A program made the position numbers and the translations under genes. DNA of 64,000 nt from Fidelibacterota bacterium (GTDB taxonomy: Bacteria; Fidelibacterota; UBA8477; JABMPR01), in contig JADHVL010000009.1 in the NCBI GenBank assembly GCA_016784025.1, forward strand, positions 62,001-126,000, given 5' to 3'. The number at the start of each line of letters is the position of its first letter. The first letter of the stretch is position 1. The notes under the pieces were generated by a model that saw only the letters and a program-made list of their open reading frames with translations, had not been told where the DNA came from and ran no database searches. Shown here one piece after another: positions 23,933 through 29,848 of the stretch.

Positions 23933-24023
23933 TCTGTTAATATAAATTTAAAGCCCACAGGCACAAAGACTTCAACGCTTTTCATTGTGTTGATTTCAAA
24001 ACATTATTTCTAGTGAAAATGAA

Positions 24024-24060
24024 AAGGCGATGTACCCGAAAATAAGATAAACATCGCCTT
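24024..24060 (-). terminator. Rho-independent terminator after the cmk-rpsA gene
   Basis: On the minus strand a perfect 10-bp stem, AAGGCGATGT paired with ACATCGCCTT, encloses a 17-base loop and is followed by TTCATTTTC. It lies about 55 bases beyond the stop of the fused cmk-rpsA gene and before the YbbR gene, so it should separate the two transcription units. The loop is long and the T-run is interrupted, which lowers certainty about efficiency. Confidence 0.7.
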
Positions 24061-24113
24061 CATATTTCATACCAGGGTAGAAAACCTATCCCGATGAGAT
24101 TAGATCAGGAGTG

Positions 24114-27100
24114 TTACTCCTTGTCTCCCTCATCTGAATCAGCTGCTTCAGTTTCTGGGGCTTCCGGAGCCTCTTCAACTTTTTCAGGGGCTTCAACAAC
24201 TTCTGGAGTTGCCTCAACCTCTTCTACTTCCTCTATTTTTTCGACTTTTTCTACTTTTTTCTTTTTAGGAGCAGCCTTTTTCTTGGCTGGCTTCTTCTCA
24301 GCCTTCTCAGCCTTCTCAGCTTTCTCAGCGGGTTTTTCTTCAGTTTCACGGATTTTACTAAGAATGGCCTCTGGGATCTCGAGTTTATCACTTACATGGT
24401 CTTGACCACGGATGAACTCATCGATATCATTGCGTTCCTTATCCTTGATAGCTGACTCGTGGCTGACAACGACTTTTTTCTCAGTCGCATCAACTTCAAC
24501 AACCTTCACTTCAACTTCAGCATCCTGTTCAAACTGATCGAGGATTTCTTTGCGCTCTTTCTTACGGAAATTGCCCAGAGAAATTATTCCCTCTACGTCA
24601 GTGTCAGGAAAGCTAAGGATGACACCCTTTTCGAGAAGCTTGATAACAGTACCCTTATGAGAGGTATTCACAGCAAAACGATCCTTAAGCTCTGGCCATG
24701 GATTTTCCTGGGCCTGCTTGATTCCAAGAGAGATTTTGCGTTCACTCTGGGAAATATCAAGGATTTTCACCATAATTTTGTCACCACGATTCACAATTTC
24801 CTTGGGATGGCGAACTTTACTCGTCCATGATAGATCAGAAATGTGAACTAAACCGTCAATACCCTCTTCAAGCTCGATGAAAGCACCAAACTGGGCCAGG
24901 TTGCGGACAGTTCCCTCATGGACTGAACCGACGAGATATTTCTCTTCGATGGTTGTCCATGGATCGGGTTGTAGCTGTTTTACACCAAGGGAGATCTTGT
25001 GGTTTTCAGCATCCACTGAAAGCACAATGGCATCGATTTCATCACCTACATTGAAAACATCTGAAGGATGCTTAATATGCTGGGTCCATGAAATCTCTGA
25101 GATGTGAACCAGACCCTCAACACCAGCAGTCAGTTCAACAAAGGCACCATAGTTGGCAAGGCTAACAACTTTTCCATTTACAGATGTACCCTCTGGATAT
25201 TTGGCAACAACACTTTCCCAAGGATGGGGTTTGAGTTGCTTGAGTCCCAGCGATACCCTCTGTTTGGTTGTATCATAATCAATAACCTTGACCATGATGT
25301 CTTCATCCAGACTAACAACCTCTGAAGGATGATTGACACGACCCCATGAGAGATCTGTGATATGGAGAAGACCATCAATTCCACCAAGGTCAACAAACAC
25401 ACCAAAATCGGTGATGTTTTTGATCCGCCCTTCGAGAATCTGACCAACTTCAATTTCATCCAGGAGTTTACTGCGTTGTTCCTTCAGGCTCTCTTCCAGG
25501 AGTTCCTTACGGGAGACAACAATATTTTTACGAAATTCGTTGACCTTAACGATCTTAAATTCGAAAGATTTTCCAACATAAGCATCGAAATCTCTGATGG
25601 GTCTTACATCCAGCTGGGAGCCAGGTAAGAAGGCATCAACACCGAGGATATTTACAACCATTCCACCCTTGATACGACGGGAAATGGTACCTTCAACAGT
25701 TTCAGCATCAGCATATTTCTGCTTAACATTATTCCAGACACCCATGAACTCAGCCTTGCTTCTAGATAATACGGCCTGTCCAAGTTTATCTTCCATCCTC
25801 TCCAAGAAGAGTTCAACAGTTTCACCAACTTTTGGCTCATCATTCCCAAACTCATGACGTGCAACGAGACCTTCGGATTTACCACCAAAGTCTACCATAA
25901 CATCACGATCGCTTACAGAGATAATGCGAGCTTCAACCAGGGCCTGCTGTTCAATATTTTTAACGGTATGATCGAGTAATTCCTGTAAAGCAATAGCTTC
26001 TTTACTGGTAACTTCCTGCTCTTCAGGTAACTCACCCTGCTTCAAGGTTTTAATCTCAGCAAAAAGATCATTCATCAATGCACGTTTTCCCTGGGATACA
26101 TCAGGTGCATCTACTTGGGCTTCAGTTGGAGCAGCTTCTTCGGTAACTTCTGGTTCAGGAGCTACTTCGTCAGCGACTTCAGCTACTGGTTCCGCCTCAA
26201 CAACGGGCTCTTCTTCCACAGGGGCGGCAACTTCAGCTACTTCTTCTTTCGCTTCCTCGACTTCCTCTGCAGGTGCTTCTTCAACAACTTCTTCAGTTGT
26301 GTCTTTGGACACAGCTTCTTCAGTTGCTTCTTTAGCAACGTCTTCAGTTGCTTCTTCTTTAACTTCTTCTACAACTTCTCCAGTTGTGTCTTTGGACACA
26401 GCTTCTTCAGCTACGGCTTCTTCAGCAGGAGCTTCTGGGGTTTCCTCGGCGGGCGTCGTCTCGACGGCGTCTTGGGATTCAGCGGATACTTCAGCTGTTT
26501 CTGCTGTTGCTTCTTTAGCAACATCTTCAGTTGCTGCTTCAGCAACGTCTTCTTTTACATCTTCAGCTTTTGCATCCATGTCTTGTTTCTTGGTCATTAA
26601 GTTTCCTCCATTTGACTTCGCTGTCTCCACCCTGGAGACAATAAATTCTATCTGATCATCGATACTTAATTCTGTCGTATCGAGAGTAATTGCGTCTTTT
26701 GCAGCTTTCATAGGTGCCAATTTGCGTTTGGCATTATGTTCATCTCTTTCGAGAATCTCTTTTTCTAATTCTTCTATGGACTTCTCTATACCCTGTCGGG
26801 CAAAATCCTTCTGCCTGCGTAAAGCTCGAACCCGAGCATCTGCCACCATATAAATCTTGATATCCGCATCGGGAAAAACAACGGTGCCGATATCACGCCC
26901 TTCAAGCACAACATCGTGGGATTGGGCTACTTCACGCTGAACCCCTAGCAAACGATTTCTGACCCCGGCGATGGCGCTAACATCAGCCACCAGATCAGTA
27001 ACTTGAGGCGATCGGATTTCATCACCTAGCAGATTTCCATCCAAGTAGATTTCCTGGATATCTTTATTGAATGTGACTTTTAGATCAAGACCATCTAACA

Positions 27101-27272
27101 ATGTCTGCAGATCATCAAGCTTTGATAAGTCCATGTTTTCATTGATTATTTTTAAGGTAATAGCCCGGTACATTGCACCGGTATCGATGTGCCGAAAATT
27201 CAATTTTTGGGCAACACCGTGAGCCGTAGAGCTCTTGCCGGATGCTGCAGGGCCATCAATGGCAATAATCAT
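24114..27272 (-). CDS. cmk-rpsA: Cytidylate kinase fused in frame to ribosomal protein S1
   Basis: A single 1052-codon frame. Residues 1-220 are cytidylate kinase (P-loop AIDGPAASGKSST, then RHIDTGAMYRA, VVLEGRDIGTVVFPDAD), which phosphorylates CMP/dCMP. From residue 226 the frame continues as S1: an acidic Ala/Glu/Val-rich stretch (226-395), six S1 RNA-binding domains (about 446-970, e.g. GRIKNITDFGVFVDLGGIDG) and a Lys/Glu/Ala-rich tail. An ATG at 26597 in frame (MTKKQ) has GGAGGA 6 bases upstream, so S1 alone (827 residues) can probably be made separately. TAA overlaps this ATG in the +1 frame, so a one-base shift near the cmk end would restore two separate genes. In E. coli cmk and rpsA are neighbours but distinct. 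A true fusion, a gene with internal initiation, or a sequence error are all possible. Confidence 0.9.
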   Translation of the reverse strand: MIIAIDGPAASGKSSTAHGVAQKLNFRHIDTGAMYRAITLKIINENMDLSKLDDLQTLLDGLDLKVTFNKDIQEIYLDGNLLGDEIRSPQVTDLVADVSAIAGVRNRLLGVQREVAQSHDVVLEGRDIGTVVFPDADIKIYMVADARVRALRRQKDFARQGIEKSIEELEKEILERDEHNAKRKLAPMKAAKDAITLDTTELSIDDQIEFIVSRVETAKSNGGNLMTKKQDMDAKAEDVKEDVAEAATEDVAKEATAETAEVSAESQDAVETTPAEETPEAPAEEAVAEEAVSKDTTGEVVEEVKEEATEDVAKEATEEAVSKDTTEEVVEEAPAEEVEEAKEEVAEVAAPVEEEPVVEAEPVAEVADEVAPEPEVTEEAAPTEAQVDAPDVSQGKRALMNDLFAEIKTLKQGELPEEQEVTSKEAIALQELLDHTVKNIEQQALVEARIISVSDRDVMVDFGGKSEGLVARHEFGNDEPKVGETVELFLERMEDKLGQAVLSRSKAEFMGVWNNVKQKYADAETVEGTISRRIKGGMVVNILGVDAFLPGSQLDVRPIRDFDAYVGKSFEFKIVKVNEFRKNIVVSRKELLEESLKEQRSKLLDEIEVGQILEGRIKNITDFGVFVDLGGIDGLLHITDLSWGRVNHPSEVVSLDEDIMVKVIDYDTTKQRVSLGLKQLKPHPWESVVAKYPEGTSVNGKVVSLANYGAFVELTAGVEGLVHISEISWTQHIKHPSDVFNVGDEIDAIVLSVDAENHKISLGVKQLQPDPWTTIEEKYLVGSVHEGTVRNLAQFGAFIELEEGIDGLVHISDLSWTSKVRHPKEIVNRGDKIMVKILDISQSERKISLGIKQAQENPWPELKDRFAVNTSHKGTVIKLLEKGVILSFPDTDVEGIISLGNFRKKERKEILDQFEQDAEVEVKVVEVDATEKKVVVSHESAIKDKERNDIDEFIRGQDHVSDKLEIPEAILSKIRETEEKPAEKAEKAEKAEKKPAKKKAAPKKKKVEKVEKIEEVEEVEATPEVVEAPEKVEEAPEAPETEAADSDEGDKE
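26294..26410. repeat. Direct repeats inside the acidic linker of the S1 coding sequence
   Basis: A 30-base segment at 26294-26323 recurs exactly at 26381-26410, a spacing of 87 bases (29 codons), preserving the frame. It encodes the recurring EEAVSKDTTxEVVEE peptide. Related shorter repeats (EDVAKEAT) lie on both sides. This suggests the acidic linker grew by in-frame duplication or slippage. Confidence 0.85.
26595..26609 (-). promoter_or_regulatory. Internal Shine-Dalgarno and ATG for ribosomal protein S1
   Basis: On the minus strand the order is GGAGGA (26604-26609), a 6-base spacer, then ATG (26595-26597) opening MTKKQDMDAK. The site lies inside the longer cmk frame and is one of the best ribosome binding sites in the window. 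It indicates that S1 can be initiated independently of the kinase. Confidence 0.75.
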
Positions 27273-27326
27273 TTCAAAAAGCCGCTTTAATCAATATTAT
27301 TTTATATACTCGTTTCAAAGCGGCGC

Positions 27327-27355
27327 AATATAGACGACCATTAATGCCAACACAA
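27327..27355 (-). promoter_or_regulatory. Putative promoter of the cmk-rpsA gene
   Basis: Minus-strand TTGTGT (27350-27355) and TATATT (27327-27332) are 17 bases apart, about 55 bases before the cmk ATG. The -10 region is embedded in GCAATATAGACG (plus-strand reading, 27325-27336), identical to the element in front of ugd. A second AT-rich run (TATATAAAATAATATT) lies closer to the gene and could hold another -10. Confidence 0.5.
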
Positions 27356-27408
27356 CCCAGAATAGTTGACCTAAATAATTGAATTTTATAAGGGAGAGCT
27401 TGCAAGAA

Positions 27409-29118
27409 CTACTTGATGCGATAGCCTTTATCCTCATACTCCAGAACCCAGTTTACGATGATACCAATGTCCATGCGTTGGGTTGCTCCCAGAAAACGTC
27501 TGTTCCTGAAGTAATATGAAGAATAATCCTGTTTGGTTTCCTTCTCCATATCATCCCCCAATGCTGCAAGTCTTTCCTGCCATTTGATGATATTCGATTT
27601 CCGCAAATCCAGCCAGCCACCGCTGGTCCATTTCTCAATATTATCAGGGTTAACATCCAGTACAGTTCGTCCCTCAAAATTGGGTTCTGACATATCAGGA
27701 CCGCGCAAAAATGTGATACCATCCTTCAAAAGAATCGGTGTACCAACCGAGAGGATTGTTGAACGTAACTCTTTATTCGTGAGAATTTCCGCTTCCATTT
27801 GAGCGGCAAGCTCATCAGGATCAGCAGTTAACACGTCTGAAATATTTCCCTTGAGACGTTTGAGAATGTAGACTTCATACAATAGTTTTGTTAAACGCGG
27901 TGGACCCAATAACTCGAAAGCCACACTATCTTTCCCGGTTTCTTCCTCAAGAGCTTCCATTTTCTTCAGCGCATCCTTGCGGATCAGCCCGGCACGATAG
28001 GAAGGTGCCAGTACAGATGAATCAAGACTGGAGATGATATCATTACCTGTGTTTCCACCCATAATCTCAAGGAGTGTCAGATCTGCAATTTCTTCAGGGG
28101 TGACAAATTCCATTTGACCTTCCCCAGTCAAAACCGAGAATTCTCCAGCAGAAAAATAGCCATTCTCACCTGCATCTATATAAACTGACTCCAAAAACTC
28201 GTCTCCCAGCCGATCCCAGGTAGATTTTGGGGATTTACTCAGGGAGTCACCCAGTATGGTGGCTTCTCCTGGCAGGGAATCATAGAGGGGAATGTGACTT
28301 CCTCTTCTCACTACTTTTCCAAAGCCAATTTTTTTCCAGGCTATGGCTGCAGTAGGTTTGATTTCCTTGATGATCGGTGCCTGTGGTGTTCGTCCAAGCA
28401 ACCAGAGCAGCATGGTGTGAGCACCCGCCAGCGATGACTTACTCATCAGCATTTTTGAAGGTTTGTCTTCTGAATGGGTATAGGGAATATTAAAGCCCAT
28501 ACCACCTGTTCCACTGGTACCCACCTTCAAGTAGAGTTTTGTATCAGCCTGTCGCATACTTTCGATAAGAATCTGCACGTGACGAATTAATTGTGGAATA
28601 TATAGGGTTGAAATAATTCGCTCCACGGTCTCGATCAACTTATCGTCGGCAGTTTTACCCTTGCGAATTTCATTTATCTCCGCTCTGAGCTCAGCAACGA
28701 TCTGATAAACATTCTGATAGGCAAAGGCGGTGGCCGTGTTGATGCAATCAATGAGAATCTGAGGTTTATGGGTATCCATGATCTGGTATAATTTTGAATT
28801 ATTAATGATATCTGGACCGAGATCGTCGTAAATGTCATGAATCATTAATTCTACCTGTTCTGGTTTGGAATAAATATCCGCCTTTGATAAATAGGACAAT
28901 TCATTTCGTACAAACAGATCACCGTGTACAGAAATTATTTTTGTTCCCTGATTAAGGGGATGATTTTCAAGTATGGCCTGAATTTCTGCGGCCTCATTTT
29001 CCCGGAGAGATGTCACGATTAATTCAGATGGTTTTTCTTCAAGTAATTGTTTGGCAATGGCTTGACCCACCAGCCCCCAACCACCAAGTATTAATACTCG
29101 TTTACCTTTAATGTCCAT
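27409..29118 (-). CDS. Large Rossmann-fold protein of unknown function
   Basis: A 569-residue soluble protein. The N-terminus has a dinucleotide-binding motif, VLILGGWGLVGQAIAKQLL (GxxGxxG with a following basic/polar patch), as in short-chain dehydrogenases and epimerases. A later KLYLKVGTSGTGGMGFNIPYTHSE segment near residue 190 may be the substrate-side loop. The remaining 300 residues have no domain I know, so the protein is far larger than a normal SDR (about 250-350 residues). There is no signal peptide. Its start overlaps the end of the rluB gene by 11 bases, placing it at the end of the trpS-scpA-scpB-rluB operon. The reaction is unknown; NAD(P) use is inferred. Confidence 0.7.
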   Translation of the reverse strand: MDIKGKRVLILGGWGLVGQAIAKQLLEEKPSELIVTSLRENEAAEIQAILENHPLNQGTKIISVHGDLFVRNELSYLSKADIYSKPEQVELMIHDIYDDLGPDIINNSKLYQIMDTHKPQILIDCINTATAFAYQNVYQIVAELRAEINEIRKGKTADDKLIETVERIISTLYIPQLIRHVQILIESMRQADTKLYLKVGTSGTGGMGFNIPYTHSEDKPSKMLMSKSSLAGAHTMLLWLLGRTPQAPIIKEIKPTAAIAWKKIGFGKVVRRGSHIPLYDSLPGEATILGDSLSKSPKSTWDRLGDEFLESVYIDAGENGYFSAGEFSVLTGEGQMEFVTPEEIADLTLLEIMGGNTGNDIISSLDSSVLAPSYRAGLIRKDALKKMEALEEETGKDSVAFELLGPPRLTKLLYEVYILKRLKGNISDVLTADPDELAAQMEAEILTNKELRSTILSVGTPILLKDGITFLRGPDMSEPNFEGRTVLDVNPDNIEKWTSGGWLDLRKSNIIKWQERLAALGDDMEKETKQDYSSYYFRNRRFLGATQRMDIGIIVNWVLEYEDKGYRIK

Positions 29119-29848
29119 GTGCCAATTCCTTCAATTTTGCGATCTCGGCAGCTGATAATACCCGATATTTACCCAGGGAAAGATCATCCACTCTTAAAAA
29201 TGCAAATTGCTCTCTGTGGAGTTTCACCACCTTGTGACCCAGAGCCATAAAAATTCTCTTTATTTCGCGTTTACGACCCTCTCTAAGGATGAGTCTGATT
29301 TCTGTAAATCTATCGAAATAGTTGTAATCAAGAACCTCTGCGATTGCTGGTGTTTTAGCTTCAATATTTATGCCAAGCGGCAGACGATCCAGATCCTCCG
29401 AGCTCACCTGCCCCAACACGCGTACAGCATATGTTTTGGGAATTTGAAATTTTGGATGGGTCAAACTATAGGCCAGATCTCCATCATTGGTGAGAATAAT
29501 CGCCCCTGTCGTATCAAAATCCAATCTCCCCACTGGATAAATTCTATCCTTTGATGGAATTAAATCAATTATTGTGGTCCTGCCATAGGGATCATTGGTA
29601 GTGCTGATGACCTGTGTAGGCTTATTGAGGAGAAAGTATTGATAGTCTGGTTCGAGTATGATCTGCTTCCCTTGAAAGACAACCTCGTCTGATAATGGAT
29701 TTACACGTGTAGCCGGATTGCTCTCAATCTGACCATTGATTGTCACCAAACCTTTTTGAATAAGGTCATCACAGACCCGTCGTGAACCCAGACCAGCCAT
29801 TGCCAGATAGCGATTGAATCGTATCTGCTCTTCAGATTTTTCAGACAT
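29108..29848 (-). CDS. rluB: 23S rRNA pseudouridine synthase (RluB/RsuA family)
   Basis: Converts a specific uridine of ribosomal RNA to pseudouridine. From the ATG at 29848 it is 246 residues: an S4 RNA-binding domain (RFNRYLAMAGLGSRRVCDDLI, about 8-60) and the catalytic domain, with the active aspartate in VGRLDFDTTGAIILTNDG around residue 105, and the family element REGRKREIKRI near residue 195. The frame could start at a TTG at 29884, which would add 12 residues with no family match. Gene order scpA-scpB-rluB is widespread in bacteria and supports RluB over RsuA. Confidence 0.9.
   Translation of the reverse strand: MSEKSEEQIRFNRYLAMAGLGSRRVCDDLIQKGLVTINGQIESNPATRVNPLSDEVVFQGKQIILEPDYQYFLLNKPTQVISTTNDPYGRTTIIDLIPSKDRIYPVGRLDFDTTGAIILTNDGDLAYSLTHPKFQIPKTYAVRVLGQVSSEDLDRLPLGINIEAKTPAIAEVLDYNYFDRFTEIRLILREGRKREIKRIFMALGHKVVKLHREQFAFLRVDDLSLGKYRVLSAAEIAKLKELAHGH

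Follow-up and report, generated by a model that had tools for sequence, protein, structure and literature searches.

Two genes, those for cytidylate kinase (cmk) and ribosomal protein S1, occupy a single reading frame in the DNA studied here, a stretch of 64,000 nucleotides that we call the window. This raises the question of what the frame encodes. The first-pass annotation allowed three readings, i.e. a genuine fusion protein, one transcript giving both a kinase-S1 fusion and free S1, or a one-base error that hides an ordinary gene junction. We have examined the locus and its relatives with these in mind.

The continuous frame and its parts

The cmk-rpsA frame runs without an internal stop for 1052 codons at positions 24114-27272, kinase first and S1 second, in agreement to the base with the frame and coordinates first described. 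It lies on the minus strand, as do all the features discussed below. The kinase part comprises codons 1-225 (26598-27272). The Pfam family Cytidylate_kin (PF02224) covers residues 3-216 of the fused protein, the (d)CMP kinase model TIGR00017 is passed with 218 bits (cut-off 136), and the match to PDB 2h92 has an E value of 7e-46. Residues G7, G12, K13 and G125-T130, in the P-loop and GRDIGT segments, are invariant in 14 fused proteins. Judged by profile and by these conserved segments, the N-terminal part is a cytidylate kinase.

The C-terminal part contains six tandem S1 stretches in a repeat region at residues 437-937 (24462-25964), seen in the profiles and in a structure model, and it passes the full-length bS1 model NF004952 (669, cut-off 524); on this basis it is ribosomal protein bS1. 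Two other bS1 models were narrowly missed (NF004953, 713 vs 720; TIGR00717, 558 vs 577). No IspH domain is present among the six Pfam families found in the fused protein, and NF000907 scored below its cut-off (491 vs 624). A search of the organism's own genome (86% complete) with the whole protein returned the fused locus and, elsewhere, a single partial match resembling S1; neither a separate kinase nor a second full S1 was found.

The S1 core is preceded by an acidic N-terminal extension (26034-26597) that is predicted to be disordered, with pLDDT values below 50 over residues 222-422. The structure model places kinase and S1 modules around this low-confidence linker; it is based on a shallow alignment of 14 sequences, with a mean pLDDT of 68 and a pTM of 0.34. 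An acidic extension occurs in both fused and split loci, with D+E near 28% in each. Its median length is 132 residues in 34 fused loci (measured from where the kinase core ends) vs 68 in 109 split ones.

The comparison with sister genomes proposed in the first-pass annotation was carried out on 17 loci of the same genus, and the same open junction is present in 16. In 14 the kinase runs into S1 (one of these, G008, ends later at a contig end), two are open and cut by the end of the contig after the junction, and one (G017) is split. All 16 open junctions share AAC TTA ATG ACC AAG AAA CAA, with a Shine-Dalgarno (SD) sequence that is GGAGGA in 15 and GGAGGT in G018. Named records with the open junction span the label series SI036, SI053, BH, Tobar, CSMAG, Dive96 and GMC6.

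The internal start of S1 and the RNA around it

The start codon of S1 is the in-frame ATG at codon 226 (26595-26597). It is preceded by GGAGGA (26604-26609) with a six-base spacer, AACTTA, and the 16S tail of the same genome contains CCTCC. A TAA at 26597-26599 lies in the +1 frame relative to the cmk-S1 frame. The start, the SD with its spacing and the TAA are thus all found as noted at first pass. The frame has 14 ATG codons, and that of S1 alone follows a 5-base SD; two others follow a 4-base SD. The calculated duplex with the anti-SD is -9.3 kcal/mol, equalled by the first ATG of one in 44 open reading frames of the window, where taking the first ATG is a crude rule. The cmk start has no SD, and its duplex with the 16S tail is only -2.3 kcal/mol.

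These figures, together with the recurrence of the open junction in relatives, place the site beyond a chance occurrence. The same pattern is seen at 36 fused or open junctions. The median duplex energy is -9.3 kcal/mol there vs -2.4 at 484 in-frame ATGs elsewhere in these frames (rank-sum p 7e-23, relatedness ignored), with the 16S tail of a single genome (G000) applied to all. In each of the 10 genera the junction duplex is stronger than those of the other in-frame ATGs, and in 34 of the 36 cases no ATG of the frame has a better one; genera within one clade might share an ancestral junction, and they are therefore not fully independent. The weakest genus for the internal site is f26.g53, with a moderate duplex of -6.2, and two genomes (G173 and G077) have other in-frame ATGs whose context equals or exceeds that of the junction. 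The start codon is kept at all 36 junctions, as ATG except for GTG in G024.

We note that a 5-base SD precedes the first ATG in just 5 of 50 long open reading frames of the window (again by the crude first-ATG rule) despite the CCTCC of the 16S tail, so that the S1 start is an exception. It recalls the bS21 gene of Flavobacteriales as an SD exception (PMC9976891). Since SD use in the genome looks limited, the duplex energy may overstate initiation.

The junction is also conserved at the level of the nucleotide sequence. In 13 fused frames of the genus (L126, with a cut S1, was excluded here and from the pooled test below) the mean pairwise synonymous difference is 0.439 over 583 usable codons. 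Over codons 222-230 it falls to 0.019, and none of 200000 amino-acid-matched draws was as low. This range was set after viewing the alignment columns, having been shifted from codons 218-226, for which the first test gave p 0.00012. The ranking of codon windows was not chosen in this way, and the ten lowest of 512 all start at codons 207-225. The junction is the most synonymously constrained stretch of the frame in this genus. The first codons of cmk are unconstrained (p 0.20). As a positive control, the true S1 starts of four split genomes of genus f6.g17 give a like signal (p 0.004), and addition of the fused G077 to these four gives p 0.00025. The signal is weaker in other genera (f6.g7, p 0.039; f2.g3, p 0.001 from just three sequences). 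When families f1 and f2 are pooled (18 sequences) the lowest windows lie away from the junction, perhaps because the f2 junction sequence differs.

Upstream of the internal SD there is a 9-bp RNA hairpin, TTGTCTCCA-GGG-TGGAGACAG (26621-26641), identified by folding and by pairing within the genus. It is kept in all 17 same-genus junctions, including the split one. The folding z score is -3.8, and 100% of cells are paired in the 14 distinct rows given by 16 same-genus sequences, with no double changes among these rows. The six usable codons within 211-219, the region of the hairpin, are codon-invariant. The 5′ arm contains TCTCC, which might also pair with the SD, a candidate pairing.

A second element of 30 nucleotides, GACGCCGTCGAGAYGACGCCCGCCGAGGAA, lies in the linker (26442-26471). 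In 18 sequences of families f1 and f2 its Ala269, Val270 and Pro274 codons are invariant, while outside the element no column is codon-invariant for Ala (0 of 17), Val (0 of 32) or Pro (0 of 14). Changes inside it alter the amino acid, so that in f1 and f2 it is conserved by nucleotide and not by amino acid. It is found in single copy in each of 21 of 199 genomes of the phylum, all of them f1 and f2; the two f1 genomes that lack it (G005 and G013) also have no cmk match. The element might possibly form a small hairpin. The proposed pairing shows one double change, as many as in 44 of 500 shuffles and 2 of 6 slid versions, and has a z score of -0.95. Some of the changes preserve a wobble pair or are located in what may be a GNRA-like loop. 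Several of the element's variable sites would be silent in frame +2, but an overlapping gene was rejected as the source of the conservation, because stops interrupt that frame within some 35 codons in 20 loci. A search of Rfam over 24000-29200 gave three hits (E 0.17-4.5), none of which reached its gathering score or lay at the junction.

Junction states across the phylum

Judging from its closest named relatives, the genome of the window belongs to the Neomarinimicrobiota, a phylum known chiefly through environmental DNA. Among 149 kinase loci of this phylum, 34 are fused, 112 split and three cut (one of these, G198, ends before the junction). The loci were fetched from 179 genomes with a kinase match, out of 199 genomes of the phylum that were searched, and the genomes include MAGs; as about 30 were left unfetched and long open frames were favoured, 34:112 is not an unbiased rate. 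A fused locus occurs in 10 of 71 genera, and two genera (g1 and g17) contain both states. A quick tree of 142 of the loci, with 32 of the 34 fused ones, requires at least seven changes of state; support is low (0-68) at several of its nodes, and no direction is inferred from it. The fusion is absent from 63 loci (L049-L111) within the best 80 of 351 kinase loci of the genome collection, a set that includes a few Neomarinimicrobiota or near relatives; S1 was located on 56 of the 63.

The form taken by the junction in the nearest split loci differs from the TAATG overlap suspected at first pass, being instead an in-frame TGA directly before the ATG. The split member of the window's genus (G017) reads GGA GGA ACT AAC TGA ATG, and the four split genomes of f6.g17 read GGA GGA AAA TGA ATG. 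In the fused G077, of the same genus as the latter, the sequence is GGA GGA AAA TTA ATG, so that split and fused states differ by one substitution (TGA vs TTA) within a genus. G019, from another genus of the window's family, is fused with GGA GGA AAC TGG ATG; both TGG and TTA can be reached from TGA by a single substitution. In two further loci of f6.g17, L189 (G059) and L275 (G089), the kinase continues past the ATG of S1 in another frame, which constitutes a third junction state. The simplest account of the sequences would be an ancestral in-frame TGA touching the ATG that was lost more than once; the direction of each gain or loss of the stop is an inference, and G017 may have kept its stop or regained it.

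At split loci the median duplex at the S1 start is -5.9 kcal/mol (n = 110, again with the G000 tail; the starts were assigned by a rule that may err at some loci). A value of -8 is reached in 12 of 34 starts that abut or overlap the kinase stop vs 3 of 76 at a distance of 1-110 bases. From this difference, a strong SD may be a precondition for tolerating loss of the stop.

Predicted products of the frame and comparison with known systems

We consider it probable that this is an inherited cmk-S1 fusion created by loss of the cmk stop with the S1 start kept, and that it gives a minor kinase-S1 protein and a major free S1. Loss of the stop codon would merge the kinase frame with S1 while leaving the downstream start in place. 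Ribosomes initiating at the weak cmk start would make a minor 1052-residue kinase-S1, and those binding the strong internal GGAGGA would start from codon 226, the major product being an ordinary S1 of 827 residues (24114-26597), predicted from the internal ATG and the profile matches. With one weak and one strong start, every kinase molecule would therefore be joined by a long flexible linker to a tail of S1, and most S1 would be free. The two products and their ratio are suggested by the duplex energies of the two starts together with differing demand, S1 being required at the level of ribosomes and the kinase at that of an enzyme. The kinase may by this route become attached to ribosomes. 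Of the readings offered at first pass, that of one transcript yielding both proteins has the best support, which comes from conservation of the SD and start and from the synonymous constraint.

The alternative that survives best has somewhat less than an even chance, and it shares the two-product mechanism, differing only on benefit, so that its odds overlap with those of the preferred explanation. Stop loss would be tolerated by virtue of S1's own start, the fused product would bring no benefit, and the junction would flip at random. The occurrence of both states inside two genera and the repeated changes on the tree would be expected of such drift; against it, the junction is open in nearly all loci of the genus despite an average pairwise difference of 0.44 at usable codons.

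A fusion protein alone, the first of the original readings, is unlikely. Every S1 would then carry a kinase, the 1052-residue protein would be the sole product, and GGAGGA-ATG would be a relic of the split pair. The open frame, the single kinase locus and the failure to find a second full S1 in the genome are consistent with this. However, a relic would be expected to lose its sequence at synonymous sites, yet it falls in the most constrained stretch; the start codon and an SD-like site are kept in 10 of 10 genera with the fusion; and for a ribosomal protein the cmk start would be a weak one.

Still less probable is a +1 frameshift, stimulated by the in-frame SD, that would bring ribosomes to the TAA at 26597-26599 and free the kinase. 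The TAA does lie just past the SD-like site, an arrangement resembled by RF2-type frameshifting, but the shift site here has no in-frame stop, and genus f2.g3 has no +1 stop (TTC ATG GCA or CCA) yet retains fusion and SD. Finally, a sequencing or assembly error concealing a normal stop can be dismissed as refuted for practical purposes: one same-genus genome, G017, does carry a stop at the junction, but the other 16 all keep this frame open, with the identical AAC TTA ATG, in records of several label series, and in-frame fusions occur in nine other genera.

The two-product explanation can be extended, as a doubtful though possible proposal, to one in which the cmk stop acts as an evolutionary switch. 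The TGA would be lost repeatedly, an RNA-structured start would continue to make S1, the kinase would be carried on ribosomes as a minor isoform, and the linker would hold a regulatory element in the order to which the window belongs.

Natural relatives whose junctions differ by a single substitution indicate how an operon may become a fused gene with its downstream product retained, and that a strong internal start can render a stop codon dispensable. It also carries a warning for annotation, as a fused frame reads as one bifunctional protein while S1 is probably mostly free. If it is true that the minor form binds ribosomes, the supply of CTP would be physically linked to translation.

The gene order is that of E. 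coli, where cmk precedes rpsA, and there too a structured region lies near the S1 start. A canonical SD is missing from the rpsA start region of several gamma-proteobacterial families, and introducing one abolishes autogenous control (PMC10931766). By contrast, the S1 start studied here has GGAGGA with its strong duplex, and so differs from an autogenous leader of the E. coli type.

In-frame pairs with two starts are found in CheA (long and short), IF2 (alpha and beta) and ClpB. Those are two lengths of one protein, whereas here the short form would be a complete ribosomal protein to which the long form adds an enzyme. As judged from the sequences, the cmk-S1 frame is a candidate internal-initiation pair, having an in-frame start and SD under nucleotide-level conservation. 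In two-form genes of Salmonella the alternative starts have a stronger SD context than the annotated ones (PMC11005335), which is the pattern of the cmk-S1 frame.

Enzymes joined to S1 repeats have been described before. IspH-RPS1 fusions occur in anaerobic Firmicutes, and CMP-IspH-RPS1 in Candidatus Arthromitus, with role unknown (PMC4746011); these likewise join a metabolic enzyme to S1 repeats, while the frame studied here has no IspH domain. The terms 'start codon' and 'stop codon' are both absent from the main text of that paper. The closest likeness is TP0279 of Treponema pallidum, annotated as one gene for a bifunctional cytidylate kinase/ribosomal protein S1 (PMC3373638); the phrase 'bifunctional cytidylate kinase' is also present in PMC3570794. 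Compared by annotation, both loci have the two domains in one frame, with no separate copies found in ours, and Treponema belongs to another phylum. Among the matches listed in our literature search, with most subscription papers outside its scope, none dealt with Neomarinimicrobiota fusions, repeated stop loss or an internal start in such a fusion. The kinase-S1 fusion itself is already annotated in Treponema, and what is new is the probably recurrent loss of the stop over a preserved internal start.
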